DNA from: Shewanella putrefaciens
GTDB taxonomy: Bacteria; Pseudomonadota; Gammaproteobacteria; Enterobacterales; Shewanellaceae
Direction of reading: 5' to 3'
Length of the DNA: 64,000 nt
Assembly: GCF_016406305.1 (NCBI RefSeq)
Contig: NZ_CP066369.1
Coordinates: 1,692,501-1,756,500, forward strand
Under the pieces are notes generated by a model. That model had not been told where the DNA came from. It was given only the letters and a program-made list of their open reading frames with translations, and did no database searches. The position numbers and the translations under genes were made by a program. Positions within the stretch are counted from its first letter, which is position 1. Every line of letters begins with the position of its first letter. Below, piece by piece: positions 21,477 through 48,187 of the stretch.

Positions 21477-23900
21477 ATGAAGCCTGAGACTATGGCACCA
21501 ATGAGTGTACAAGGTCGAGTCTTAACCCGCCATGCGAGCCAACGTGATGGGCAGTTAGTGTTGCAATATTATTTAGCAACCGAGCAAGGCCCTGTGCTGG
21601 TGGAAGTGCACGATACGGAATACCTCTGTTTTTGTCATCAAATGGATGTGGCCGCCCTGCAGTTACAGATGCCGGGCCAAGCCCTACGATTCGTCCCTTT
21701 AGCCCTAAAAAGCTTCAAGGGCGCTGTCGTGGCTGGGATTTATGCCAAATCAAGTAGCACAATGCGGACTGTACAAAGGATTGCGAAGGACGCCGACATT
21801 CCCTTATTTGAGGCGGATATTCGTCCAGAACAGCGATTTTTAATTGAGCGTTTTGTCGCCCTTGATGTGGCCTTTTTAGGGCATTATCGCCCATCGGATG
21901 ACAATCAGGCGTCGGTTGCTAGCACTATTCCTGTGTTTGTCGCAAAGCGGGCGAGGAGCATAGCGCCGCAAACATCGATCCGCTTACGCACCGTATCGCT
22001 GGATTTTGAGTGCAGCTTCGAGGGCCTGCTCTATTCGGTGGCTTTGTATGGCAAAGAGCATAATGAGCAAGTCTATGAAAAAGTGATTATGGTGGGTGAG
22101 CCTGAGCCGGACGCGCCTGGCCATATCGGTTCTCGCTATATCGAATGGGTAAAGGATGAGCCCGAGCTTATTCATCGCTTAATTGCTTGGTTTGCGGCCT
22201 ATGATCCCGATTTCATCATAGGTTGGTCGGTGGTGACTTTTGACTTGGCCTTGTTATTTCGCCGAGCACAATTGCACCACATTCCCCTTCGCATTGGGCG
22301 CGGTGGTACTTTACTCGAATGGAAAGTTGATAATAAATTTCGCCCAGAAACCTTGAGCCTACCAGGGCGTGTGGTGCTCGATGGTATAGATTGGCTTAAG
22401 GCGGCGTTTTATCATTTTGAGCGATTTTCCCTCGAGTTTGTCGCCCAAGCGCTTTTAGGTGAAGGCAAAGCGATTCATAACGTTGATAATCGTGTACAAG
22501 AAATCGATGCACTCTTTGCCAATGATAAGCAGGGGCTGGCACACTATAATCTGACCGATAGCCGCCTCGTTTGGGATATTTTTCACCATACACAGTTATG
22601 GGATTTTGCCCTTGCAAGGGCTGAACTAACGGGGTTAGAGCTTGGGCGCGTCGGTGCTTCGGTCGCTGCATTTAATCATTTGTACTTACCTCATTTGCAT
22701 AGAGCGGGCTATGTTGCACCCGATACACCAGCGAGTCAGGGGATAGAGAGCCCCGGCGGTTATGTGATGGACTCGGTCCCCGGACTATATCAGCATATTT
22801 TAGTTTTTGATTTTAAGAGCTTATATCCCTCGATCATTCGCACTTTTCTGATTGACCCTAAAGGGCTGATCGAAGGGTTACAGTTGCCCGAGTCAGAGTG
22901 CGTCCCAGGGTTTCTTGGGGGGCGATTTAGTCGCCAGCAACCCATTTTACCTAAACTCATCCATAATCTTTCCGAGCAGCGTGAAAAAGCCAAGCGTGAA
23001 TCGAATGCGCCCTTATCCCAAGCAATTAAAATTATTATGAATTCGCTTTATGGTGTTTTAGGTTCCCAGGGGTGTGTATTCCATGATGCCAAATTGGCGA
23101 GTTCGATCACTATGCGCGGCCATCAAATTATGAAGCAAACGCGGGCTTGGATTGAAGACATGGGATATCAGGTGATTTATGGCGATACCGACTCGACCTT
23201 TGTGTGGTTAGGTAAAAATCCTGAGCTTATAGATGTTGCCCAGTTAGGTAAGACCATAGCTGCACACATTAACGCTAAATGGCAGGTGAAAATTAAGCAG
23301 GAATTCCAACTTGAGAGTTTTCTTGAATTACAGTTTGAGCGGCATTATGAGCAATTTTTTATGCCGACTCTACGAGGTTCACTGGAGGGCAGTAAAAAAC
23401 GCTATGTTGGCGCTTGGCGAAACGGTCAAAATCAGCTTGAAATCACCTTTAAGGGGATGGAGCAAGTTAGAAGCGATTGGAGTCCTCTGGCGCGAAACGT
23501 TCAGGCTGAATTGTACGAACGCATGTTTAATCAACGGGATATTAGTGGTTATCTCGCATCGGTTATTGATGAGCTCTTAGCCGGAAAACGGGATGATGAG
23601 CTGATATTTCGCAAGCGGATGCGGCGTAATTTGGAGGAATATACCGCCAAAGCCTCCCCCCATGTCAAAGTGGCAAAACAATTATGTGAACTAACAGGAA
23701 AGGCCTCATTTGGCAAGAGAGGAGCGCAGATTGATTATGTGATCACAATCAATGGTCCGGAACCTGTACTGTACAGAACGTCGGTAATTGACTATCAATA
23801 TTATATTGATAAACAGATCAGCCCCATCGCCGAGCCTGTATTTTCAATAATGAAACTAAACTACATGGACATTGCATCGAAACAGTTGTTGTTAATATAG
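21477..23900 (+). CDS. polB: DNA polymerase II (family B)
   Basis: An 807-residue family B DNA polymerase. The proofreading domain keeps Exo I SLDFECS, Exo II IIGWSVVTFDLALL and Exo III YNLTDSRLVWDIF. The polymerase core has motif A DFKSLYPSIIRTF (about residue 445), motif B KIIMNSLYGVLGS and motif C YGDTDS (about 568-573). It performs translesion and restart synthesis at damaged forks. ATGs at 21477, 21492 and 21501 are all possible starts; I keep the first. Adjacent to divergent dinG. Confidence 0.95.
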   Translation: MKPETMAPMSVQGRVLTRHASQRDGQLVLQYYLATEQGPVLVEVHDTEYLCFCHQMDVAALQLQMPGQALRFVPLALKSFKGAVVAGIYAKSSSTMRTVQRIAKDADIPLFEADIRPEQRFLIERFVALDVAFLGHYRPSDDNQASVASTIPVFVAKRARSIAPQTSIRLRTVSLDFECSFEGLLYSVALYGKEHNEQVYEKVIMVGEPEPDAPGHIGSRYIEWVKDEPELIHRLIAWFAAYDPDFIIGWSVVTFDLALLFRRAQLHHIPLRIGRGGTLLEWKVDNKFRPETLSLPGRVVLDGIDWLKAAFYHFERFSLEFVAQALLGEGKAIHNVDNRVQEIDALFANDKQGLAHYNLTDSRLVWDIFHHTQLWDFALARAELTGLELGRVGASVAAFNHLYLPHLHRAGYVAPDTPASQGIESPGGYVMDSVPGLYQHILVFDFKSLYPSIIRTFLIDPKGLIEGLQLPESECVPGFLGGRFSRQQPILPKLIHNLSEQREKAKRESNAPLSQAIKIIMNSLYGVLGSQGCVFHDAKLASSITMRGHQIMKQTRAWIEDMGYQVIYGDTDSTFVWLGKNPELIDVAQLGKTIAAHINAKWQVKIKQEFQLESFLELQFERHYEQFFMPTLRGSLEGSKKRYVGAWRNGQNQLEITFKGMEQVRSDWSPLARNVQAELYERMFNQRDISGYLASVIDELLAGKRDDELIFRKRMRRNLEEYTAKASPHVKVAKQLCELTGKASFGKRGAQIDYVITINGPEPVLYRTSVIDYQYYIDKQISPIAEPVFSIMKLNYMDIASKQLLLI

Positions 23901-24122: not shown

Positions 24123-25331
24123 ATGAACAAAACGTTAGTAGCAACTGCGTTAGCAGCAATATTCCTCGCTCCAACAGTCTCGGCAATTGAGATCTACAAA
24201 GACGATAAAAATGCCGTCGAAATCGGTGGATTTATTGATGTGCGCGTAATCAATACGCAAGGGGAAACTGAAGTTGTTAATGGTGCTTCTCGCATTAATT
24301 TTGGTTTTAGCCGTGAACTGACCCACGGCTGGAATGCATTTGCCAAATTAGAATGGGGTGTTAATCCCGTTGGTAGCAGCGACATCGTTTACAACAATCG
24401 TTTTGAATCTGTTCAAGATGAGTTTTTTTACAACCGCCTCGGTTATGCGGGTATTTCCAATGATGACTACGGGACTATCAGCATTGGTAAGCAATGGGGT
24501 GCTTGGTACGACGTGGTATATAACACTAACTATGGTTTTGTATGGGATGGTAACGCCGCCGGTGTTTACACATTCAACAAAGATGACGGTGCGGTTAACG
24601 GCGTAGGCCGTGGCGATAAACTGGTTCAATACCGCAACGCATTTGGTGATGTGAGCTTTGCGGTTCAAGCCCAATTGAAAAACAGCAGTTTCTACACCTG
24701 TGATGTTGAAGATATCACCGAAGAAGCTTGTGAGGCACGTTGGAACCAAGGTGAAGCTGACTCGCAGCAAGTGACTTACAACTATACCTATGGTGGAGCC
24801 GTTACCTACCAAGCAACAGATATGCTGAGCCTAATGGCGGGTATTAACCGTGGTGAATTTGATATTAATTACGGTAATGGTGATCAAAAGACTGCTGTTG
24901 ACCTAATCTACGGTGCGGGTATTACTTGGGGTAATTTTGACAATAACGGCTTCTATGCAGCTGCTAACGTCAACAAGCAAGAAAACCATGATACCGATAA
25001 TATTGGCCGATTAATCAAAGACGCTTATGGTGTTGAAACCTTAGTATCTTACAAGTTTGACAATGGGTTACGTCCATTTATCTCTTATAACCTGTTGGAT
25101 GCCGGTAAGGATTACGTGATTCAGCCAAATTTTAACGCCGATCCTAATGATGTATTTAAACGTCAGTTCGTGGTTGCAGGGCTGCATTTTGTTTGGGATC
25201 CGAACACAGTTCTCTATGTCGAAGCACGTAAAGATTTCAGTGATTTCACCAGTGCCGATAAAGAACAAGAAGCCAGAATGTCACTTTCAGAAGATGATGG
25301 TATCGCAATCGGTATCCGCTACACTCTGTAA
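24123..25331 (+). CDS. General porin (Gram-negative outer-membrane trimer)
   Basis: 402 residues. A signal peptide (VATALAAIFLAPTVSA) is followed by a porin beta-barrel with alternating aromatic strands and short turns, ending with the aromatic-terminated strand GIAIGIRYTL needed for BAM assembly. The pattern VEIGGFIDVRVINTQGE, FGFSRELTHGWNAFAKLEWGVN and YGTISIGKQWGAWYD is that of the OmpC/OmpF-like porin family of marine gammaproteobacteria. It lets small hydrophilic solutes cross the outer membrane. Own terminator, so monocistronic. Confidence 0.9.
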   Translation: MNKTLVATALAAIFLAPTVSAIEIYKDDKNAVEIGGFIDVRVINTQGETEVVNGASRINFGFSRELTHGWNAFAKLEWGVNPVGSSDIVYNNRFESVQDEFFYNRLGYAGISNDDYGTISIGKQWGAWYDVVYNTNYGFVWDGNAAGVYTFNKDDGAVNGVGRGDKLVQYRNAFGDVSFAVQAQLKNSSFYTCDVEDITEEACEARWNQGEADSQQVTYNYTYGGAVTYQATDMLSLMAGINRGEFDINYGNGDQKTAVDLIYGAGITWGNFDNNGFYAAANVNKQENHDTDNIGRLIKDAYGVETLVSYKFDNGLRPFISYNLLDAGKDYVIQPNFNADPNDVFKRQFVVAGLHFVWDPNTVLYVEARKDFSDFTSADKEQEARMSLSEDDGIAIGIRYTL

Positions 25332-25884
25332 GAGTTACATTTTATAAAGTAAGAGCGAAACTAAGCTCACCACTTTTGTTGCCAAATGCCAGTCAGCCAT
25401 GACTGGCATTTTTGTTTGTGTGGTACGCGTATCAATAAGCACTTAAGTATTAATCTTGGTTGTTTTAGTGAAGCGAAACAAAATTGTCTGTTTAAAAGGT
25501 GAGCAGTTGTCGAGTTAACTTCTACTTCAGGACGCCGTAATTTACATTTAAAAGTCGTTCTCAATGAGGATGTTTTTTTGTGAATGCAAGACTATTTTTT
25601 GTTAGATCAAGGGCATAAATCTTAGTCGCTTTAAACTTGCTTTTAAGCCAACTTGTTACTTTGAATGATTTTAATTTTATTCAACATATTGATTTAATTG
25701 TGTTTTACGTGATTTTGATATTTTAAAATGCATTACTATTGTAATTCTGTGGTTGTATTTGTTGATTTTATGTTTCCCATGTGTTTTTATTGTGTCGCCT
25801 ATACGTGGCTTTGTGGCGCATTTGGTGCCTAAAGGTTGCTCAAAGTAAAAAATAATAAATAACAAATATCCAGGGAGATAGACA
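25332..25884. other. Long AT-rich intergenic region before the TonB-dependent receptor gene
   Basis: It holds the porin terminator at its left end and otherwise an AT-rich stretch of about 470 bases. I see no credible gene, no Fur-type GATAAT repeat and no strong palindrome. The long leader suggests that the receptor gene has a substantial upstream control region. A strong ribosome binding site (CAGGGAGAT) precedes its ATG. Confidence 0.6.
25384..25413 (+). terminator. Terminator of the porin gene
   Basis: ATGCCAGTCA / TGACTGGCAT stem followed by TTTTTG. Confidence 0.9.
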
Positions 25885-28494
25885 ATGCATAAGAATAGCT
25901 TATTGGCTAAGTCAGTACGTTTTGCGTTGATTAGTGGTGTTACCGCCGCAACATTAAGCGTACCTGTTACTTTTGCTGCTGAAGAAGAAGGCGCGAAAGT
26001 TGAACGTATCGAAGTTACTGGTTCACGTATTAAACGTAGTGATCTAGAAGGTGCTTCGCCTGTAACATCTATAACAACAGAAGACATGAAAGTTGAAGGT
26101 AACTTTACCGTTGCGGACGCACTCCGTAACAGTAACCTAAACTCTTTCGGTTCATTCTCTGAGCGTTCTGGTAGCTCAGCACAGTCACAAGCGACTATCG
26201 ATTTACGTGGTGCAGGTTCATCACGTACTTTAGTGCTGATTGATGGCAAACGTTTCCCTGGTTCACCAACTCTGGGTGGCAGTTCTGCTAACTTGAACGC
26301 TATTCCAATGGCGGCCGTTGAGCGTATCGACATTCTTACCGATGGTGCATCATCAACCTACGGTTCAGATGCGATTGCGGGTGTGGTTAACATCATCATG
26401 AAGAAAAACTATCAAGGCATTGAATTTAATGCTGGTGGTGGTTCTCGTGAACAAGACGGTGGCTTAACAAGCAAAGAATTCTCTGTCGTTGCTGGTTACC
26501 AAATGGACAAAGGGAATATCACATTCTCATTCGATCACCAAGACCGTAAAGGTATTTCTGATGCGGACCGTGATTATACTGCGCCTAGCATGAATGATGC
26601 TAACGGTGATGGCATTATTCAGGCGTACACAGAGACCATCGGTTGGAGTATCTATGGTGCTACAGTAGCAGCCCCTGATTTCTCTTCTGCACAAGCTTCT
26701 CCACTATGTGACGATTTAGCCGCCCAATATGGTTCAAATGTGTTCAAAGAAGTAGCTGCCGATGATGACTGGGGTCCAGGTTCAACTTACTGTATGTATG
26801 CCCACGCTAACGTCTCTTACAACAAAGCCTCTACTGACCGTAACACTGTCTATGTAGATGCGAACTATGAAGTGGCCGAAGATGTTGAATGGTTCGGTCG
26901 CACTATGGTGACACAGAACAACTCCTTTGGCCGTTATGCGCCTCCAGCTGCCCCATGGAACAACATGGCAGCCGATAACCCACATAACCCATTTGGTGAA
27001 GAAACAACAGGTTACTGGCGTTGGGCGGGTATCGGTACTCGTGATGGTAACGTAGACGATTATAACCAAGATTATTTAACGGGTTTACGTGGAACTATCG
27101 CATCATTAAATGATGCATCGTGGGAAGTTTACTATCACTACAATAAAGCCGATAACAAATCCATTGGTGAATACTATTTAAGTTATGCTGGCCTTGCTTA
27201 TAATGAGGCAAACGGTATCGATTTAGGGTCTGAAGAAGGTATCGCAAATATGAAAGCGACTACTTTGACTCAGGATCGTTCTGTATTTAACCAGTGGTAC
27301 GCCGGTATCGGTTTCGATGCTTTTGAACTGCCAGGTGGTGCTGTGGCGCACTATGTTGGTGCCGAATACTTCGAGCAAGATTACTCATCAGTATATGATG
27401 CACAATCTGAAGCAGGCTTAATTGGTGGTAGTGCGGGTAACTCTGCGGGCGGTAGCCGTGATGTTAAAGCGGTATTCTACGAAGCAGTATTGCCAGTAAT
27501 TGATAACGTAGAGCTAAACTTAGCGGCTCGTTATGACGATTACAGTGACTTTGGTGGCGAGCTTTCTCCTAAAGCATCTGTTCGTTGGCAAGCTCTGGAT
27601 AGCCTTGTAGTACGTGCTTCATACTCAGAGGCTTTCCGTGCTCCTTCGTTAGACCAATTGTATGCTGCGACTTCATTTAGTGCTGAATCAGCTCGTGACA
27701 TTCCATACTGTACTAGCCAAGGCATTGCTGATGACAAGTGCCCAAGCAGACAGATCGATACTTACTATTCTGCTAACCAGAACCTAGAGCCAGAAACTTC
27801 TGACTATATTAACTTAGGTGTGGCTTGGGATATTATTGATAACGTTGGACTGAAAGTTGATTACTTCGACTTAACTGTTGATAACGTTATCAGTTCTCGT
27901 ACTACTGAGTCAGTACTTAAGGGTATTGATGATGGTACTATCTCAGCTGACCAAACATTCTATGTTGTTCGTGCTCCAAATGGTGCCGATGGTTCATTAG
28001 GTAAAGCACTGGAAGTGGGTACTGGCTACGCTAACGGTGATACATTTGAAATTGAAGGTATCGACGTAACAATCGATGCCAACATGGAAACTGGTATCGG
28101 TGAGTTTGGCCTTGTGTGGAGCAACAGCTTCATTCTGAGCTATGTTACTGAAGATACCGCAGGTGTGTCAGAAGATATCGCAGGATGGGCAGGTAGCCCA
28201 GACTACAAGTCTGTCTTCACAACGACTTACTCTTTCGGTGATAGCGTGTTAGCGTGGAACATGAACTACACAAGCTCAACTTATGAGTCTGGTACTTCTG
28301 GTAGCTTGGATTCATGGTTAATTCACAACATCAGCTATAGCTATGACCTAGGTAACTACGGTAAAGTTATGTTAGGTATCAACAACCTGACTGATGAAGA
28401 TCCAGTTCTAAGCTCTTCTGGTGTGTATGAGAACGCTGACCTGTATAACAACTATGGTCGTGAATATCGTGCAAACTACACAATCAAGTTCTAA
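25885..28494 (+). CDS. TonB-dependent outer-membrane receptor
   Basis: 869 residues. A long signal peptide ends near VTFAA, then an acidic start and a TonB-box-like VERIEVTGSRIKRSD. The plug domain includes VADALRNSNLNSFGSFSERSG, TIDLRGAGSSRTLVLIDGKR and ERIDILTDGASSTYGSDAIAGVVNIIMKK. A 22-strand barrel follows and ends with the aromatic strand YRANYTIKF. The plug is of the type often found in receptors for peptides, glycans or other non-siderophore ligands; the ligand is unknown. Genes for a dedicated TonB system start 1.8 kb downstream. Confidence 0.92.
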   Translation: MHKNSLLAKSVRFALISGVTAATLSVPVTFAAEEEGAKVERIEVTGSRIKRSDLEGASPVTSITTEDMKVEGNFTVADALRNSNLNSFGSFSERSGSSAQSQATIDLRGAGSSRTLVLIDGKRFPGSPTLGGSSANLNAIPMAAVERIDILTDGASSTYGSDAIAGVVNIIMKKNYQGIEFNAGGGSREQDGGLTSKEFSVVAGYQMDKGNITFSFDHQDRKGISDADRDYTAPSMNDANGDGIIQAYTETIGWSIYGATVAAPDFSSAQASPLCDDLAAQYGSNVFKEVAADDDWGPGSTYCMYAHANVSYNKASTDRNTVYVDANYEVAEDVEWFGRTMVTQNNSFGRYAPPAAPWNNMAADNPHNPFGEETTGYWRWAGIGTRDGNVDDYNQDYLTGLRGTIASLNDASWEVYYHYNKADNKSIGEYYLSYAGLAYNEANGIDLGSEEGIANMKATTLTQDRSVFNQWYAGIGFDAFELPGGAVAHYVGAEYFEQDYSSVYDAQSEAGLIGGSAGNSAGGSRDVKAVFYEAVLPVIDNVELNLAARYDDYSDFGGELSPKASVRWQALDSLVVRASYSEAFRAPSLDQLYAATSFSAESARDIPYCTSQGIADDKCPSRQIDTYYSANQNLEPETSDYINLGVAWDIIDNVGLKVDYFDLTVDNVISSRTTESVLKGIDDGTISADQTFYVVRAPNGADGSLGKALEVGTGYANGDTFEIEGIDVTIDANMETGIGEFGLVWSNSFILSYVTEDTAGVSEDIAGWAGSPDYKSVFTTTYSFGDSVLAWNMNYTSSTYESGTSGSLDSWLIHNISYSYDLGNYGKVMLGINNLTDEDPVLSSSGVYENADLYNNYGREYRANYTIKF

Positions 28495-28510
28495 TTTGAT
28501 TGCGGTTTAA

Positions 28511-28543
28511 TAAAAAGGCCAGTTCTTTGAACTGGCCTTTTTG
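28511..28543 (+). terminator. Terminator of the TonB-dependent receptor gene
   Basis: AAAAAGGCCAGTTC / GAACTGGCCTTTTT hairpin with a T-run, separating the receptor from the methyltransferase gene. Confidence 0.9.
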
Positions 28544-28628
28544 TATTTGAAGCTAACGAAACTATTTAGTTATTCTTACTTGTAAGTGTACATAATTTGC
28601 TATGTAGCATAAGTTGAATTATCACGGG

Positions 28629-28647
28629 TAACCTATAAGATAGGTTA
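28629..28647. repeat. Perfect palindrome upstream of the methyltransferase gene
   Basis: TAACCTAT-AAG-ATAGGTTA has perfect 8-base arms with a 3-base centre, 51 bases before the ATG. It fits a dimeric operator or a short leader hairpin. Confidence 0.6.
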
Positions 28648-28698
28648 TTAGGCGAAAAAGTTATTTCATATCTAAATTTAACAAAGGATTAGCTGTAA

Positions 28699-29655
28699 AT
28701 GAGCAAGCATTGGAGTGAGTATTGGAAATTAGGGCACTTAACTTCTTTTGGTGCCGATTTTCAAGGAAATTACACTGGATTACTGAAAGCGCGTTGGTCT
28801 AATGTTTTTAGTGGTTTCCCATCAAAATTCAATGTGTTAGATGTTGCTACCGGGAATGGTGCTTTGCCTCTTTTAGTCCAAGATTATTTTAGTCAGTCTG
28901 ATATAAAAGGCGTGGTTAAAGGAATTGACTATGCTGATATCAACACACTTCCACTTGCCGATTCACATTATAATAAAAACATACGTATAGAATTAATTGG
29001 GAATACGCCTGCAGAAAAACTTCCTTTCAGAAACGGTGAATTTAATGCCGTTATTTCCCAGTTTGGTATTGAGTACTCAAATTTAGAACTTTCTCTAGCA
29101 GAGGTTGAAAGGGTCTTAGCATCGGATGGCGTATTTCATGGAATAATGCACCATAGGGAGTCTGTCATAATAAAATATAACCATAAGTTGTTGGACTTTA
29201 TACTTAGAGAAGAACTGGATAAAGTGATTGAACGCCTAAATTGTCTAGCGACAGATATGGGGGTCGTACTGGATAAGCAAGATTTAGCTCGAATTAAGTC
29301 ATGTGAAAAATGTGAAGAAAGTCGTTTGGAAATTAATGGTTTACTGTCAAAGTTGGCCGCCTGTGATGAGCTGTCCTTACGGGAGAGTGAGTTTCTAAAT
29401 TATGTGAATAATTTTTTTAAAAGCGGCTTGTATTGGGATGTCGATAAAAAACTCGAATATCTTGATTTTGTGGGTGTGCAATTAAGGGTTTACAGAACTC
29501 GATTGACAGAGTTAGTTGCAGCGTCAATGTCTGCAGAACGCATATCAACACTGAAAGAAAATTTACAACAAAGGAATATCAAAAAATTTGAAGCAAGTGA
29601 GATAAGAGATGATAACAATAATGTGTTGGCATGGTATGTGTTTTTTCAGAAATAA
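28699..29655 (+). CDS. Class I SAM-dependent methyltransferase, target unknown
   Basis: 318 residues. The N-terminal half is a Methyltransf_11-type Rossmann domain: motif I VLDVATGNGALPLL (SAM binding), an acidic GIDYADINTLP after strand 2, LPFRNGEFNAVISQFGIEYSN (motif IV region) and AEVERVLASDGVFHGIMHH (post-motif). The C-terminal 160 residues are helical and carry no motif I know. Base composition is more AT-rich than in most genes around it. It lies between a TonB-dependent receptor and a TonB2 operon and may act on a ligand taken up by that system, but nothing in the sequence shows this. Confidence 0.8.
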   Translation: MSKHWSEYWKLGHLTSFGADFQGNYTGLLKARWSNVFSGFPSKFNVLDVATGNGALPLLVQDYFSQSDIKGVVKGIDYADINTLPLADSHYNKNIRIELIGNTPAEKLPFRNGEFNAVISQFGIEYSNLELSLAEVERVLASDGVFHGIMHHRESVIIKYNHKLLDFILREELDKVIERLNCLATDMGVVLDKQDLARIKSCEKCEESRLEINGLLSKLAACDELSLRESEFLNYVNNFFKSGLYWDVDKKLEYLDFVGVQLRVYRTRLTELVAASMSAERISTLKENLQQRNIKKFEASEIRDDNNNVLAWYVFFQK

Positions 29656-30080
29656 ATAGCTAAATTAGCATCTATAATGTGTTGCTATATAAATAGCCGT
29701 TTCGAATTCTAGATCACTCTATGGGCGAGCAGTGTATCTCGCACCCTGGAGGCGAACGGAAACGATATGTTGTATGAATCAAACCAGTTCCGCATTTTTT
29801 AACAAAATTGGTTGGTTGTTGGTTTGTTAGCAAAGTGCACTAACGTAAGGATATTTTAGTAAGTTAGTGCCCAGTTGTTTAATGTTTGCTTATAGATGCC
29901 GAGATTTACTATAGACAGCTAATTTCTACTTTTTCTTCTAAATATCAATGCACTATTGGTGATTCGCGTCTCTTTGTTAAGATTTTAAGGACTGTGTAAA
30001 CCGTCTTTCGTGTAAAAAAGCCCCTTCCGTAAAGATTTTTATCGCTAACGCTCCTTTACACTAGTTTTTACGTATTCCGA

Positions 30081-30100
30081 ATGTTGACACAGGTCAACAT
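30081..30100 (+). promoter_or_regulatory. Perfect palindrome overlapping a candidate -35 element of the TonB2 operon
   Basis: ATGTTGAC-ACAG-GTCAACAT is a perfect inverted repeat with 8-base arms. It contains TTGACA (30084-30089), a consensus -35 hexamer, and AATGAT lies 18 bases downstream as a possible -10. A protein bound here would block the promoter. The regulator is unknown. Confidence 0.55.
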
Positions 30101-30123
30101 TTTGTGAAATGATGCCAGCGGGT

Positions 30124-30143
30124 CTATGCCTGCAGAGGCATAG
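30124..30143 (+). repeat. Second perfect palindrome / leader hairpin of the TonB2 operon
   Basis: CTATGCCT-GCAG-AGGCATAG has 8-base arms and a 4-base loop. It would form a stable stem-loop near the 5' end of a transcript from the promoter just upstream, and may stabilise or regulate the mRNA. Confidence 0.6.
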
Positions 30144-30276
30144 GAAAGGGAAGAAAAAACTAAGAATCACAAGAGAAAGACGAACTTACAGTATTTATGG
30201 CCTGACGCATTTGTTGCTGAGGGAGATGTTGCTGGTAAGTTAAACCTTTTTATTCACTTCAAATTGGTTGGGAACT

Positions 30277-31059
30277 ATGTCCAAGGTAAGCAATAGAACA
30301 AAAATCGCTACTGCACTTGTTGGCGTGCTGGCATTAGCGAGCAGCAACTTCGTGGTTGCAGATCCTCTTACCGACGTGCAAAAAGCGGATAGTTTAATCC
30401 ACGCTGATGCCGCTGCGTCGCAAAAGAATGTTGATAAGTATTTCGATCAAGCACAAGACATGCTTTTTGAGTATGGCTCTGTGGCTGATGAACGCGAGTC
30501 ACTGAAGTCATATAACGACTATGTTGCTAGCTTAGTTGCTGATCAACAAAAGACAATGGACTCGATTCAAAACGATATTAACGGCGTTGATAAATTACGT
30601 CAGGGCGTAGTGCCTTTAATGTTTAAAATGGTTGAGTCATTAGAGCAATTTGTTCAATTAGATTTACCATTTAACTCTGAAGTACGTGCTAACCGTGTTA
30701 AAGAGTTGAAGACTCTTCTAAATACGGCTGAAGTAACTTTAGCTGAAAAATACCGCTTAATCCTTGATGCGTATAGCATTGAGCGTGAATATGGTAGTGC
30801 TGTTGCAGTAAACCAAGGCAAATTAGACCTCGACGGTAAAGAAGTGTTAGTTGACTTCTTTAACTTAGGTCGCGTTGCTCTTTATGCACAGAGCTTAGAT
30901 CAAAAGACTGGCTGGATTTATAACTCTCAAACTAAGTCTTGGGATAAGTTAGAAGATAGCTACCTGCGTGAACTGACAAAAGGTATCCGCATTGCCCGTA
31001 AACAAGGCGCTCTAGATCTATTCGCGTTACCAATTCCTGCTGCGGAGACTGCACAATAA
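30277..31059 (+). CDS. DUF3450 family periplasmic coiled-coil protein of the TonB2 operon
   Basis: 260 residues from the ATG at 30277; a TTG three codons upstream is less likely. A signal peptide (IATALVGVLALASSNFVVA) precedes a long helical, coiled-coil region and a small C-terminal domain typical of DUF3450 (DGKEVLVDFFNLGRVALYAQSLDQKTGWIYN). The family is found almost only next to TtpC-type ExbB genes and is thought to be a periplasmic accessory of that TonB system. Its stop overlaps the next ATG (TAATG). Confidence 0.88.
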   Translation: MSKVSNRTKIATALVGVLALASSNFVVADPLTDVQKADSLIHADAAASQKNVDKYFDQAQDMLFEYGSVADERESLKSYNDYVASLVADQQKTMDSIQNDINGVDKLRQGVVPLMFKMVESLEQFVQLDLPFNSEVRANRVKELKTLLNTAEVTLAEKYRLILDAYSIEREYGSAVAVNQGKLDLDGKEVLVDFFNLGRVALYAQSLDQKTGWIYNSQTKSWDKLEDSYLRELTKGIRIARKQGALDLFALPIPAAETAQ

Positions 31060-32414
31060 TGAAGAAGTTAATTACTACAGCTGTATTAGCTGCAAGTTTC
31101 TCTTTAACTGCTGGTATGGTAAGTGCAGCTGATGCACCTAAGACCATCGATCAACTATTGCAGCAAGTTAAAGTTGACCGTGCTGCTGAAGGCAAAGTGA
31201 ATAGCAAGCGTGAGCAAGAATTCCAAGCAGAACGTGGCGATAAAGCTGCGCTGTTAAAACGCGAGAAAGATGCTCTAGCTGCTGAAAAACAACGCGGTAA
31301 AGATTTGAACCAAGCGTTTTTAGATAACGAGCGTAAAATCGCTCAGTTAGAAGAAGATCTGAAAACCGCTCAAGGTGACTTGGGTGAAATGTTTGGTGTA
31401 GTTAAAGGTGAAGCCGGTGATTTCGCTGGTAAACTGTCTAGCTCAAACATCAGTGCTCAGTATCCAAATCGTGACAAGTTTGTTGCCGATTTAGGCGCTC
31501 GTAAGCAATTACCTAAGATTGAAGAATTAGAACAATTCTGGCAAGAGCAGCTGTTTGAAATGGCGCAATCTGGCAAAGTTGTTAAATTCGAAGGTTCTGT
31601 TACTGGTATCGATGGTAGCGTTAAAACAACGACTATTCACCGTATCGGTGCTTACAACTTAACTGCCGACGGTAAATATGTTGTTTACAACCCTGAATTA
31701 GGTTTAATTCAAGAGTTATCACAACAACCAGAAGGCTACCAAGTTAGTGCGGTTGGCAAGTGGGAACAAACTACGTCAGGTACTGCACCTTTCTATATTG
31801 ACCCTGCGCGTGGCGTACTGTTAAACATCTTCACTAACAAAGCGAGCTTTGAAGACCGTTTAGAAGCTGGTGGTTCTATCGGTTACATCATTATTGCTCT
31901 GTTAGCTTTAGGTCTGTTGATCTCTATTGAACGCTTAGTCACTATGACTATCATCGGTTCTCGTGTGAATAGCCAACGTAAGAATATTGATAACCCAGGT
32001 AACAATGCCTTAGGCCGTATCCTGAAAGTATATCAAGAGAACAAAGACGTTGATGTTGAAACATTAGAGTTGAAACTAGACGAAGCGATTCTGAAAGAAA
32101 CGCCTGCTTTAGAGTCTCGCATTTCAATCATCAAAGTACTGGCCGCTATCGCACCTATGATGGGTCTGTTAGGTACAGTAACCGGTATGATTGCAACCTT
32201 CCAAAGTATTCAATTGTTCGGTACTGGCGATCCAAAACTGATGGCTGGCGGTATCTCTATGGCGTTGATCACGACTGTCCAAGGTCTGGTTGCGGCACTG
32301 CCTCTGATGTTAATGCATGCAGTTGTTGTTGCGCGTAGCAAATCAATCGTACAAGTTCTGGAAGAGCAAAGTGCTGGTATCATTGCAGCGCACGCTGAGA
32401 AGAGGGCTAACTAA
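31059..32414 (+). CDS. exbB: TtpC-like ExbB1: periplasmic coiled coil fused to a MotA/TolQ/ExbB proton channel
   Basis: 451 residues. A signal peptide (AVLAASFSLTAGMVSAA) and a periplasmic coiled coil (about residues 30-115) precede a small domain, then the MotA/TolQ/ExbB channel at about residues 270-450. The channel has helices GYIIIALLALGLLISIERL, APMMGLLGTVTGMIATF and ISMALITTVQGLVAALPLMLMHAVVV. This layout matches TtpC, the extra component needed by TonB2 systems in Vibrio. It overlaps both neighbouring genes by one base (TAATG). Confidence 0.9.
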   Translation: MKKLITTAVLAASFSLTAGMVSAADAPKTIDQLLQQVKVDRAAEGKVNSKREQEFQAERGDKAALLKREKDALAAEKQRGKDLNQAFLDNERKIAQLEEDLKTAQGDLGEMFGVVKGEAGDFAGKLSSSNISAQYPNRDKFVADLGARKQLPKIEELEQFWQEQLFEMAQSGKVVKFEGSVTGIDGSVKTTTIHRIGAYNLTADGKYVVYNPELGLIQELSQQPEGYQVSAVGKWEQTTSGTAPFYIDPARGVLLNIFTNKASFEDRLEAGGSIGYIIIALLALGLLISIERLVTMTIIGSRVNSQRKNIDNPGNNALGRILKVYQENKDVDVETLELKLDEAILKETPALESRISIIKVLAAIAPMMGLLGTVTGMIATFQSIQLFGTGDPKLMAGGISMALITTVQGLVAALPLMLMHAVVVARSKSIVQVLEEQSAGIIAAHAEKRAN

Positions 32415-32941
32415 TGATGCTATACCTGATGGACATTTGGGATTCCGTCAGGGGCTTCATGGCCTCCGGAGGCGACGTCCTCTGGTTAGTAGCGTTTGTG
32501 CTGTTCTTAATGTGGGTATTGATGCTTGAGCGTTACTGGTATCTAAATTGGATATCACCAAAGCAACATCAAGCAATCATAGCTGCATGGGATGCTAGAG
32601 AGGAAACAACCTCTTGGTATGCACACCGTATCCGTGAAGCTTGGCTGTCCCAAGCGAAGCAAGATTTGAATGCACGTATGCTGGTCATTAAAACCTTAGT
32701 AGCGATTTGTCCTATGATAGGTTTGTTAGGTACTGTTACCGGTATGATTTCAGTGTTCGATGTGATGGCAGTTCAGGGGACGAGTAATGCTCGTTTGATG
32801 GCGGCTGGTATTTCAATGGCAACAATGCCCACAATGGCGGGAATGGTTGCCGCATTATCGGGAGTATTTTTCAGTACTCGCCTTGATGCAAAAATGAAAA
32901 TCAGTTTAGAAAAGCTAAAAGACAGCATGCCGCACCACTAG
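32414..32941 (+). CDS. exbB: ExbB2 proton channel protein (MotA/TolQ/ExbB family)
   Basis: A 175-residue short ExbB with three membrane helices: VLWLVAFVLFLMWVLMLERY, LVAICPMIGLLGTVTGMISVF and ISMATMPTMAGMVAALSGVFF. With ExbD it forms the proton-driven motor that energises TonB. It starts at an ATG that overlaps the previous stop; a second ATG follows directly. This second ExbB beside a TtpC-like protein is the signature of a TonB2 system. Confidence 0.92.
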   Translation: MMLYLMDIWDSVRGFMASGGDVLWLVAFVLFLMWVLMLERYWYLNWISPKQHQAIIAAWDAREETTSWYAHRIREAWLSQAKQDLNARMLVIKTLVAICPMIGLLGTVTGMISVFDVMAVQGTSNARLMAAGISMATMPTMAGMVAALSGVFFSTRLDAKMKISLEKLKDSMPHH

Positions 32942-32954
32942 AGAGAGATTGAAC

Positions 32955-33359
32955 ATGGCACGTAAAAAGCATTCCAGTGTAGATGAGGAAGCGCAAATTG
33001 ACATGACCCCGATGCTAGACATCGTGTTTATTATGTTGATCTTCTTCATTGTAACAACGTCATTTGTGAAACCATCTGGTTTGGACTATAACAAACCAAA
33101 AGCTTCACAAGCGACTTCAAAGCCTTCGGCTAACATCTTTATCGGCGTCAGTAAAACGGGCGTGATCATGATGGAAAACCGTCAGGTTGATATCGAGCGT
33201 GTAACTGCAAACGTTGAGCGTATGTTAGCTGAAGCCCCAGAAGCCGCTGTGCTTATTCAGGCTGATAAAGATACGCAACACGGCTTAGTAGTAAAAGTAC
33301 TAGACCAAGTCAAAGCGGCTGGTATAGATAAGATTTCGGTATCTGCGGGGAACGATTAA
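32955..33359 (+). CDS. exbD: ExbD2 proton channel protein
   Basis: 134 residues from the ATG at 32955, with GAGAGAGAT as ribosome binding site. A short cytoplasmic tail is followed by DMTPMLDIVFIMLIFFIVTT, whose Asp22 at the membrane edge is the proton-carrying residue of ExbD/TolR. The periplasmic domain follows (MMENRQVDIERV, AAVLIQADKDTQHGLVVKVLD). It works with ExbB2 in the inner membrane. One base separates it from tonB2. Confidence 0.93.
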   Translation: MARKKHSSVDEEAQIDMTPMLDIVFIMLIFFIVTTSFVKPSGLDYNKPKASQATSKPSANIFIGVSKTGVIMMENRQVDIERVTANVERMLAEAPEAAVLIQADKDTQHGLVVKVLDQVKAAGIDKISVSAGND

Positions 33360-33360
33360 T

Positions 33361-33981
33361 ATGCTAAGAGCACTAGTATCAATCATTATTGGTGCTGCTG
33401 TGACTTTTGGTCTGTTCGCTTTTATGGCGTTCTTGGTCGGTGGAGGTGCGCAGCGCGCAGATACATCGGCTGAGACCCCTGTAATTGAAATCACTATGGA
33501 TAGACAGGATTCAAAAGCACAGAATAAGCCAAGGGTAGTGCCTAAGCCGCCACCACCACCAGAGCAGCCTCAGAAGCCTGAAGCTACACCACCGGATACA
33601 TCGTCAAATATTGATACGTCTATGTCGTTCAATATGGGTGGTGTTGAAGCGGGCGGTCCTAGCACAGGTTTCAAATTGGGTAATATGATGACTCGTGACG
33701 GTGATGCGACACCTATCGTCCGTATTGAGCCTCAATACCCAATAGCAGCAGCTCGTGATGGTAAGGAAGGTTGGGTGCAATTGCGCTTTACGATTAACGA
33801 GTTGGGTGGTGTTGATGACGTTGAAGTTATCCAAGCCGAGCCTAAGCGTTTATTCGATAAAGAAGCGATTCGAGCACTAAAAAAGTGGAAATATAAGCCT
33901 AAGATTGTTGATGGCAAGCCACTTAAGCAACCCGGTATGACAGTGCAACTTGACTTCACTTTAGATAAAGGAGGCAACTAA
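33361..33981 (+). CDS. tonB: TonB2 energy transducer
   Basis: 206 residues. An N-terminal membrane anchor (IIIGAAVTFGLFAFMAFLVGG) is followed by a short Pro-rich linker (VVPKPPPPPEQPQKPE) and the TonB C-terminal domain (EPQYPIAAARDGKEGWVQLRF, EAIRALKKWKYKP). It spans the periplasm and pulls on TonB boxes of receptors, most simply the large receptor encoded upstream. The linker is short compared with TonB1. Its stop overlaps the next gene (TAATG). Confidence 0.93.
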   Translation: MLRALVSIIIGAAVTFGLFAFMAFLVGGGAQRADTSAETPVIEITMDRQDSKAQNKPRVVPKPPPPPEQPQKPEATPPDTSSNIDTSMSFNMGGVEAGGPSTGFKLGNMMTRDGDATPIVRIEPQYPIAAARDGKEGWVQLRFTINELGGVDDVEVIQAEPKRLFDKEAIRALKKWKYKPKIVDGKPLKQPGMTVQLDFTLDKGGN

Positions 33982-35228
33982 TGATGCGTAATGCTAATAA
34001 AATCGCAGCTTTATTATTGCTTTCTCTTTGTGGTGGTTTTTCTATTTCGTCTGCAGTAGCAGCTGAAAAATGTGAAATTGATAAACGCCAATCTAAAGCA
34101 GTAGGTGAGGGCGCCGCGAAGAAAGTTCAGAAGTCTTTCGAAGCTTATACTAATGGCCAACTCGATGAAGCCATTGCTATTTTGCTTGAAGCAAACGCTA
34201 AGAACGATTTTGATAAAGCCTATGTAGCGCGTATGCTAGGTAACTTTTATGCCGAAAAAGGCAAAATGGATACCGCGATCAAATACCTAAAACAAGCCGT
34301 TGAGGCGGATATTTTAGGTGGAACGGATCATGCTGCGACTATGCGTCTTTATGCTGATTTGCTGTTACAAGAGAAGAAGTTTAAGGAAGCGATTCCTTAT
34401 TACTACAAGTGGATGGACTTCACTTGTAAGGCGGATTCTCAGATGTATCGCCGTATCGGTATTGCACACTCAGAACTGAAGCAGTGGGATAAAGTAATTG
34501 AAGTGGCCGATAAGGGTCTTTCTCTTGCTGAATCGCCTGACAAAGGTCTGTATCAGATGAAGCTAACGTCTTACTTCAACCAAAAGAAGTATAAACAAGC
34601 CGTTGGTGTGTTAGAAATCATGGTGCCTTTATTCCCGGATGACGGCAGATTATGGGTTCAGCTAGCACAGTTTTATCTGATGGTAGAAGACTATGATAAG
34701 TCTCTTGCAACCTACGATTTAGCTTACAGAAATGGTTTCCTTGATAGTGCGGGTAACATTACTCGTTTAGCACAGCTGATGGCGCAGAAAGGTGCACCAT
34801 ATAAAGCCGCTAAAATCTATCAGAAACACATGAAGTCAGGTTTAATCGCTGAAGACGCAAAAACGCTTGAAATTTTAGCGGGTTTCTACCAAAACGCGAA
34901 AGAGTTTAAAGAAGCTGCTGAATTTTATGGTAAAGCCGCCGCGATCAGCAATGATGGCAAGCTTTATCTGAAACAAGGACGTTTATTGAGCTTAGATGAA
35001 AAATACGCAGCAGCGATCCCAGTGCTTGAAAAGGCCATTTCGCTCGGTATTGAACATCCAGGCGAGGCAAACTTTGAATTGGCTTTAGCCCATTTGAGTT
35101 TGAAACAGTACAAGTCTGCTTATAACCGTGCAGTATTAGCTGCCAAAGATAAGAAGACTGAGAAGAGTGCAAACAGCTATATCTCTTATATTAAAGAGAA
35201 AGCTCGTATGCATAACGTCACACTGTAA
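33981..35228 (+). CDS. Exported tetratricopeptide-repeat protein of the TonB2 operon
   Basis: 415 residues with a signal peptide (AALLLLSLCGGFSISSAVAA). The rest is tetratricopeptide helices, with repeats visible as AYVARMLGNFYAEKGKMDTAIKYLKQA, GLYQMKLTSYFNQKKYKQAVGVLE and LWVQLAQFYLMVEDYDKSLATY. Periplasmic TPR proteins are regular last members of TtpC-type TonB2 operons and probably hold the complex or bind receptor. Translationally coupled to tonB2; terminator after it. Confidence 0.9.
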   Translation: MMRNANKIAALLLLSLCGGFSISSAVAAEKCEIDKRQSKAVGEGAAKKVQKSFEAYTNGQLDEAIAILLEANAKNDFDKAYVARMLGNFYAEKGKMDTAIKYLKQAVEADILGGTDHAATMRLYADLLLQEKKFKEAIPYYYKWMDFTCKADSQMYRRIGIAHSELKQWDKVIEVADKGLSLAESPDKGLYQMKLTSYFNQKKYKQAVGVLEIMVPLFPDDGRLWVQLAQFYLMVEDYDKSLATYDLAYRNGFLDSAGNITRLAQLMAQKGAPYKAAKIYQKHMKSGLIAEDAKTLEILAGFYQNAKEFKEAAEFYGKAAAISNDGKLYLKQGRLLSLDEKYAAAIPVLEKAISLGIEHPGEANFELALAHLSLKQYKSAYNRAVLAAKDKKTEKSANSYISYIKEKARMHNVTL

Positions 35229-35254: not shown

Positions 35255-35280
35255 AAAAGCCCCTAGATAGGGGCTTTTTT
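35255..35280. terminator. Terminator of the TonB2 operon, overlapping the converging gene's end
   Basis: AAAAGCCCCTA-GA-TAGGGGCTTTTTT. A-run and T-run on either side make it usable in both directions; the stop codon of the minus-strand GGDEF-like gene lies at its edge. Confidence 0.9.
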
Positions 35281-35788
35281 ATTGAAGCCTTATCAATACT
35301 TGGGATTGCTGCAGATTTTTCTCTAGCTCCAGGGATAACTTAGATACGTTGGTAAATAGGGTTTCAATTTTCTGCTCTTGTGTCGGTAAACAAATACAAG
35401 CGGCGAGTTTATAGTCAATTTTTAGCTTGTGGTTTTTACCAAAATCCTCATTAAACGCTTGTATATGCTGCTCAATTCTTTCCAGTACCACCTCAGTGCC
35501 TTCTTCATCAATGTTAAATAAACCTAAGGCAAAATGGTTATGATCTAGCCTTGCAATCATATCCGTTGCCCGCAGCAGGGCTTCTTGTACTTGTTTAGTG
35601 AAGAATTCGAGTAAATGGGGTTGTTTGACTGTTTCATGAATGTGGGGGCACAGATACAATAGTGCCAAGCTTTGGTGTTCCCTCATATGCCGATGCCATT
35701 CTCGGTTAAATACTTCCATGAAATAGGTTTGATTGTAGACCCCGGTTTCTGGATCCCTAAATCCCGAGTTGCGAAATGAGTAGATCAT
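35279..35788 (-). CDS. Degenerate GGDEF-domain protein
   Basis: 169 residues with no membrane or sensor part, consisting of a single GGDEF-fold domain. The opening FRDPETGVYNQTYFMEVFNREW matches the D-x-LTG-x-xNR start of GGDEF domains. The active-site turn reads ARLDHNHFALGL where the family has R-x-GGDEFA, so the catalytic and GTP-binding residues are lost and it should not make c-di-GMP. It may bind a nucleotide or act as a partner of a real cyclase. Single gene, converging with the TonB2 operon and divergent from the DUF885 gene. Confidence 0.75.
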   Translation of the reverse strand: MIYSFRNSGFRDPETGVYNQTYFMEVFNREWHRHMREHQSLALLYLCPHIHETVKQPHLLEFFTKQVQEALLRATDMIARLDHNHFALGLFNIDEEGTEVVLERIEQHIQAFNEDFGKNHKLKIDYKLAACICLPTQEQKIETLFTNVSKLSLELEKNLQQSQVLIRLQ

Positions 35789-47614: not shown

Positions 47615-48085
47615 TTAACTCGCTTGGCGCTTTTGCATTGCCTTTAAGGCACATTTGCATAGTCGTCCTTTTAAAGCCGGACAGCCACTACAGGGGGATT
47701 TTTTATAGGGACGCAGTGCAAAACTGCGGCCTGTCGGTGAGGGGGATAAACGTTTAATGACGGCCGATGACAGGAAACTTGCATCATTAGCGGCAATAAA
47801 CTGGGCTTTAGCGAGTTTTAATTGTTTTTTAAGTGCAGGCTTGTCGAGATGCTTAATGTGCTGTTTAGCGAGGTGGTCGGATAATAGTTGACCTAAATAT
47901 TTACGCTGAGCTTTTTTGCTTTGTAATCGAGTATTTGAATTTAAATTCGCCGTGTCATTAGACACCGATGACATGAATTTCATCGAAGCCGATATTTCAG
48001 TCGATTTAACCTGTTGCTTTTGCAGTTTCTTTGCTTGTTTTTTACACCACTTTTCAAGCTTTTTATCAATATTCGGCTTTTTCAT
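47615..48085 (-). CDS. Hypothetical basic protein with a C-terminal Cys cluster
   Basis: 156 residues, not recognised. The N-terminus is very Lys/Gln-rich (KKLEKWCKKQAKKLQKQQ), the middle is helical (KKAQRKYLGQLLSDHLAKQHIKHLDKPALKKQLKLAKAQ), and the C-terminus has PCSGCPALKGRLCKC, a CxxC...CxC group that could bind zinc. No signal peptide or membrane segment. Basic charge and cysteines suggest nucleic acid or ribosome binding, which is only a guess. Not adjacent to any gene of related function. Confidence 0.6.
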   Translation of the reverse strand: MKKPNIDKKLEKWCKKQAKKLQKQQVKSTEISASMKFMSSVSNDTANLNSNTRLQSKKAQRKYLGQLLSDHLAKQHIKHLDKPALKKQLKLAKAQFIAANDASFLSSAVIKRLSPSPTGRSFALRPYKKSPCSGCPALKGRLCKCALKAMQKRQAS

Positions 48086-48187
48086 ACGACCTGGCGATGG
48101 CTGATAATACGAATTTATTCTAAATGAAAATTATTATCAGTCAATATCAGGTAGTATAAAAATGAGGTGCAGAGGAAGAAACTGTGA

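Follow-up and report, generated by a model that had tools for sequence, protein, structure and literature searches.

The TtpC-type TonB2 system is encoded as ttpB-ttpC-exbB-exbD-tonB-ttpD, and in Teredinibacter the tonB genes show no clear iron control (PMC10734418). A TonB-dependent receptor (TBDR) encoded next to such a system, SO_1822 of Shewanella oneidensis MR-1, is up-regulated in an arcA mutant, with a log2 change of 3.4 to 5.0 (PMC2262068), and belongs to the peptide-uptake genes that are needed on gelatin (PMC3658271). We here deal with a related locus in the window, i.e., a stretch of 64,000 nucleotides (1,692,501 to 1,756,500) in the complete genome of S. putrefaciens, which measures 4.58 Mb. 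It encodes a TBDR and a predicted S-adenosylmethionine (SAM)-dependent methyltransferase (MT), which are followed by a DUF3450 protein, ExbB1, ExbB2, ExbD, TonB2 and a TPR protein; the genes and their order, as given in a preliminary description, are borne out by coordinates and Pfam. Gene set, order and the long ExbB-like TtpC are those of the TonB2 systems of Vibrio and other marine Gammaproteobacteria. Unlike these, the Shewanella TonB2 genes adjoin an exchangeable receptor slot and retain an invariant, palindrome-bearing promoter of their own.

The essence of the locus is a real, conserved partnership of receptor and MT in an exchangeable slot beside a standard TonB2 system. In 129 Shewanella genomes, the receptor type of the window (type B, counted at ≥74% identity) and the MT were found together in 39, the MT alone in 3, the receptor alone in 1 and neither in 86 (Fisher p = 2.7e-28, which overstates independence, since the species are related). 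In the only receptor-positive genome that appeared to lack the MT (G015), a contig edge cuts inside the receptor, which amounts to an assembly gap. Another genome (G070), which has just a remnant of the MT, was not scored as MT-positive. The expected co-occurrence with the receptor thus holds in 39 of 40 genomes. A constant presence of the MT at this site in close relatives does not: 86 of the 129 species, S. oneidensis MR-1 included, have neither gene. The link nevertheless stands, because the MT is absent where a different receptor fills the slot.

The pair is not a peculiarity of Shewanella. Elsewhere, too, the MT comes directly after receptors related to that of the window: a TBDR lies on the same strand within 1.2 kb upstream of the MT in 31 of 53 named loci, a lower bound, as one receptor (L271) was recognised by Pfam only. 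All 20 MT-linked loci fetched at the order level, which were drawn from 42 non-Shewanella genomes with an MT match, have a TBDR upstream. Receptor-MT pairs are thus widespread in Gammaproteobacteria, and the arrangement is less unusual than had been thought. The receptor tree suggests that the linkage is ancestral in the clade, with later losses in the g36 genus and among those Shewanella paralogues to which the second receptor of the window genome belongs; the tree, however, is skewed towards MT-linked receptors, since most non-Shewanella loci were found via the MT and the MT-less receptors came from a separate search. To judge from gene content and order, the MT belongs to the cassette of one receptor lineage, a model we hold with high confidence. 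Most likely, it serves the receptor and neither the motor nor iron uptake.

The slot extends from polB and the porin gene, which forms the left flank in most Shewanella loci, to the TonB2 promoter. It almost always contains one to three TBDRs, which fall into about 17 divergent families when grouped at 55% identity. How sharp its borders can be is seen in a pair of genomes (G006 and G060) that are about 100% identical across polB, the receptor leader and the plug; identity falls to 60-83% in barrel and MT and returns to 98-100% from the TonB2 promoter on. Alignments of this kind show that slot contents were exchanged between species with sharp borders. Among type-B receptors, the median pairwise identity is 95% for the plug and 75% for the barrel; by sequence comparison, the plug is conserved and the barrel exchangeable. 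Between MT and TonB2 operon, blastn finds only about 30005-30276 shared with other species, and the preceding spacer has no match among plasmids or other slots.

The slots also contain oddities. Decay and duplication are seen in L072 (G023), L089 (G067) and L098 (G070), in the form of type-B receptors in tandem, a receptor interrupted by a stop and the stop-containing remnant of an MT. An IS4-family transposase resides within the slot of G083 (L070). A DUF547 protein, possibly a receptor-linked accessory, follows the slot receptor of G026 (L179) and has a homologue in G027 (L169).

The TonB2 operon does not take part in this exchange. Its TtpC-type gene set is complete, with long ExbB, short ExbB, ExbD and TonB next to each other and provided with the expected domains, and the operon, traced via the DUF3450 gene, is present in 129 of 129 Shewanella genomes searched. 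Its leader conserves TGTTGACACAGGTCAACATTTTGTGAAATGAT, which contains the -35/-10 pair; the overlapping palindrome is TGTTGACACAGGTCAACA (30082-30099). Of 120 Shewanella loci, 117 have the 18-bp palindromic core with at most 2 mismatches, regardless of the receptor present. In the window genome, the exact palindrome has no second copy. As an operator of a wider regulon it was rejected: its sole 1-mismatch copy lies inside a gene in the rseP region, which is why it looks locus-specific. With about 17 receptor families in the slot and a universal TonB2 with a near-invariant promoter, it is the slot that varies and the motor that stays the same. As far as leaders and gene content reveal, the operon is shown to be a separate module with its own promoter, motor and promoter being constant. 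Its putative role of energising the outer-membrane receptor is suggested by genomic adjacency and by the phenotype of SO_1822 in MR-1. Convergent to the operon, a 169-aa GGDEF-type protein is encoded (35279-35788, minus strand), in which only the GGDEF domain was matched. The features are compiled in Table 1.

Table 1. Coordinates of genes and sites in and around the receptor slot (positions within the window)
Feature	Position	Strand	Evidence or remark
polB	21477-23900		Left border of receptor slot, with porin
Porin (SO_1821-like)	24123-25331	+	Pfam Porin_1; with polB, conserved left border of receptor slot
ArcA-like box GTTGATTTTATGTTT, receptor leader	25761-25775	+	Position weight matrix from published MR-1 ArcA sites
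TBDR, type B lineage, 869 aa	25885-28494	+	Pfam Plug 56-167 and barrel
Terminator hairpin AAAAAGGCCAGTTC-TTT-GAACTGGCCTTTTT, receptor-MT gap	28512-28542	+	Perfect 14-bp arms; -24.8 kcal/mol, z -5.7 (only this hairpin was compared against shuffles)
Class I SAM methyltransferase (MT), receptor-linked (predicted), 318 aa	28699-29655	+	Pfam Methyltransf_11/25, over cut-off
Spacer, window-specific; right end of exchangeable segment	29656-30004		blastn of gap
Promoter of TonB2 operon; palindrome TGTTGAC-ACAG-GTCAACA overlaps it, followed by ...TGTGAAATGAT (-10)	30082-30113	+	-35/-10 pair
DUF3450 periplasmic protein, TtpB-like by position	30277-31059	+	PF11932, 292 bits; alternative TTG start at 30268 also possible
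Long ExbB1 / TtpC, 451 aa	31059-32414	+	MotA_ExbB domain at 319-435 only
ExbB2 (short ExbB), 175 aa	32414-32941	+	MotA_ExbB
ExbD, 136 aa	32949-33359	+	ExbD domain
TonB2, 206 aa	33361-33981	+	TonB_C
TPR protein, TtpD-like by position	33981-35228	+	TPR repeats

The MT is a class I SAM-dependent methyltransferase by Rossmann fold and SAM motifs, its activity being predicted. The AlphaFold2 model (pLDDT 91) combines a Rossmann core with a helical domain at about 156-290. Of the residues, 19 are invariant in 27 homologues, among them those of the SAM site (D48, G52-N53, D77). A signal peptide is not visible. No solved close relative was found, and a structure search with the model yielded generic class I enzymes only, with poor superposition. 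An assignment as quinone methyltransferase (UbiE/MenG) was discarded with 31 bits versus an equivalog cut-off of at least 158, as was one as known anti-phage defence protein (no PADLOC match). On methyltransferases or halogenases linked to TBDRs, nothing useful was found in the literature searched. The MT proteins diverge fast, with a median identity of 42%, and the ratio of non-synonymous to synonymous substitution rates (dN/dS) in close pairs is 0.08-0.19; judged by these alignments, the MT is shown to be a conserved enzyme under purifying selection.

How much of the enzyme is made may be read from its surroundings. In about 39 of 41 species, the receptor-MT gap contains a hairpin similar to that of the window but with a different stem; such differences between the stems argue for conservation of the hairpin structure itself. 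An Rfam scan gave only sub-threshold matches, which were produced by this hairpin. Some receptor-MT gaps measure just 47-62 bp, hairpin included, and therefore leave little space for a separate MT promoter. The MT gene is AT-rich, as had been noted, with 36.6% GC versus 44.5% in the receptor gene and 45.7% in the window. Its codon bias is weaker too: the effective number of codons (Nc) in the window is 53 for the MT and 39 for the receptor, and weaker codon bias (Nc 50.8 vs 38.2) and lower GC than in its own receptor are found for the MT of each of the 41 species. Because a terminator precedes the MT and its codon bias is weak, the simplest reading is that read-through supplies the enzyme, probably in small amounts.

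The receptor consists of a plug and a 22-strand-type barrel; among solved structures, its AlphaFold2 model is matched by TBDRs, including PfeA and BtuB (E as low as 3.5e-32). A named siderophore, heme or B12 receptor it is not, since all NCBIfam equivalogs score far below cut-off, e.g., BtuB with 92 versus 836 bits. In accord with the preliminary description, the leaders are devoid of a Fur-like box: within 25331-30277 no TGATAATNATTATCA (7-1-7) site occurs at up to 3 mismatches. The scan is informative, because the same pattern hits 39 sites genome-wide at up to 2 mismatches versus 7 for a reversed-pattern control. A 1-mismatch Fur box (TGAAAATTATTATCA) was seen elsewhere in the window, at 48125-48139. 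It precedes, by some 40 bp, the minus-strand gene (47615-48085) of a small, uncharacterised protein that is rich in Lys and Cys-tailed and that may be under the control of Fur.

What the receptor leader does contain is an ArcA-like box. The best ArcA-like site scores at least 9 in 85% of type-B leaders versus 18% of shuffled ones, the former being from related species and, hence, not independent. The corresponding slot of MR-1 (L085) was recognised by the presence of both published ArcA boxes, those of SO_1821 and SO_1822; ArcA binding and expression data, which indicate repression by ArcA, concern MR-1 SO_1822 only. This locus and the window share the slot, the flanks and the distance of the ArcA-like box (about -130). 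They differ in that SO_1822 is only about 30% identical to the window receptor and in that the MR-1 slot lacks an MT. With no Fur site and a conserved ArcA-like box instead, iron, in line with the preliminary description, does not look like the cue; expression of the receptor would follow ArcA, i.e., the redox and carbon state, and not Fur. As to the ligand, position and fold point, more weakly, to a peptide-like nutrient.

The MT is not the only enzyme that accompanies slot receptors. Another receptor family of the slot is followed by a TPR-2-oxoglutarate (2OG)-Fe(II) oxygenase (PF13759) of about 595 aa in 11 species; a twelfth such oxygenase, in G090, stands beside a different receptor. Outside Shewanella, 2OG oxygenases, TPR-sulfotransferases (PF13469) and Asp/Asn hydroxylases were found beside MT and receptor, and a 2OG oxygenase and the MT can occur in one gene run. 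Several tailoring enzymes per receptor locus, namely TPR-2OG oxygenase, MT, Asp/Asn hydroxylase and TPR-sulfotransferase, are seen in L367, L368, L349 and L364. TBDRs with TPR-2OG oxygenases or TPR-sulfotransferases resemble the window in that a cytoplasmic modifying enzyme is encoded directly 3' of the receptor; the chemistry differs. In the literature searched, no published function of these TBDR-linked oxygenases and sulfotransferases was found. Surface proteins that are methylated by a SAM enzyme of their own are known from flagellin, whose lysine methylase FliB is encoded near its target, and from OmpB of Rickettsia with its methyltransferases. In the present case, methylation of the receptor is hypothetical. 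That the receptor-linked cytoplasmic enzymes (MT, TPR-2OG oxygenases, TPR-sulfotransferases and Asp hydroxylases) make up a general system that has gone unrecognised, which modifies outer-membrane receptors before export and thereby alters ligand binding or hides them from phages and bacteriocins, would be a rather doubtful generalisation.

A mechanism may nevertheless be sketched. Receptor and MT would share a transcript, and the terminator between them would pass only some of the polymerases; the cytoplasmic MT would thus be made at a low level, in proportion to the receptor. The receptor may import a peptide-like nutrient and, this being the weakest step, the MT may modify the receptor polypeptide before its export. 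The short receptor-MT gaps have no room for a small precursor gene; among macromolecules, the receptor alone is thus invariably encoded along with the MT, which favours it as the target. It is also favoured because the families of the alternative or co-clustered enzymes have protein or peptide substrates. Taken together, the receptor precursor and its (peptide) cargo are the most likely targets. Of the two, we put the receptor polypeptide forward, though tentatively; an altogether different target deserves to be considered just as seriously. Short of the exact target, the full statement, i.e., fixed motor, swappable slot, receptor-MT cassette, low-dose MT and an ArcA-type cue, appears somewhat more probable than its negation.

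Various observations weigh against these proposals. No receptor residue follows the presence of the MT across the aligned receptors; T459 seemed MT-specific and was dismissed as methylation site, since the MT-linked L352 and L353 lack it. The peptide ligand is an extrapolation, because SO_1822 is so distant. Related receptors do exist without the MT, e.g., the window genome's own 45% paralogue and those of the g36 genus, and some Chromatiales-type loci harbour MT relatives without a nearby receptor. The identity of the MT correlates with that of polB (rho 0.72) better than with that of the barrel (0.35; partial 0.20, p = 0.04), and in the pairs G016/G081 and G031/G089 the barrel was swapped alone, the MT not. 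Fine co-adaptation of MT and barrel is therefore weak. As to the receptor-less MT relatives, those of L247, L256 and L269 adjoin a homologue of papain-family cysteine proteases, and this context is conserved.

These facts would suit an MT with a general task in metabolism or the cell envelope, caught between two recombination borders and functionally unrelated to the receptor: it follows the species tree better than the barrel, it has receptor-less relatives, and some receptors do without it. Yet the linkage holds far outside Shewanella in genomic settings without such a slot, and within the genus the MT is kept without the receptor in only 3 of 42 cases, so mere hitchhiking is improbable. The imported cargo as the substrate is possible, if somewhat unlikely. 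In this case the MT, or the 2OG oxygenase, would inactivate or process a peptide-like molecule that enters via the receptor, e.g., a Trojan-horse peptide antibiotic, and act as immunity or catabolic partner. It is indeed the receptor, not the motor, that the enzyme accompanies, the kind of enzyme varies with the receptor, and the MT is fast-diverging, cytoplasmic and of low level, as such a partner might be. The dN/dS values, however, show no sign of an arms race, the MT is without a match in the defence library, and its near-universal retention with type-B receptors would rather be expected of an integral partner than of one that confers immunity now and then; the cargo explanation as a whole is accordingly also on the unlikely side.

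The preliminary description had grouped receptor, MT and TonB2 genes into a single functional island, with the TonB2 complex as a possible substrate of the MT. The physical gene order in the window invites this view, and the layout receptor-MT-DUF3450-ExbB1-ExbB2 recurs in other families (L291, L353; the same order also in L364). The island is, however, divided by the terminator behind the receptor and by the separate, invariant promoter of TonB2, the motor is intact and near-invariant in the 86 species without MT, and outside Shewanella the receptor-MT pairs mostly lie apart from TonB2 genes. An MT that is part of the motor had to be rejected, since all Shewanella genomes searched have the motor, whereas receptor and MT are swapped in and out, and a common island is highly improbable. 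The cassette of receptor and MT in an exchangeable slot remains the preferred reading.

What had been a local oddity thereby becomes a rule open to test: a slot for interchangeable receptors adjoins a conserved import motor, and certain receptor lineages bring along their own modifying enzyme. The expected cue shifts from iron to the ArcA-controlled redox and carbon state. If the MT acts on the cargo, it points to what many orphan receptors import. If it acts on the receptor, TonB-dependent receptors would carry post-translational modifications that have been overlooked.

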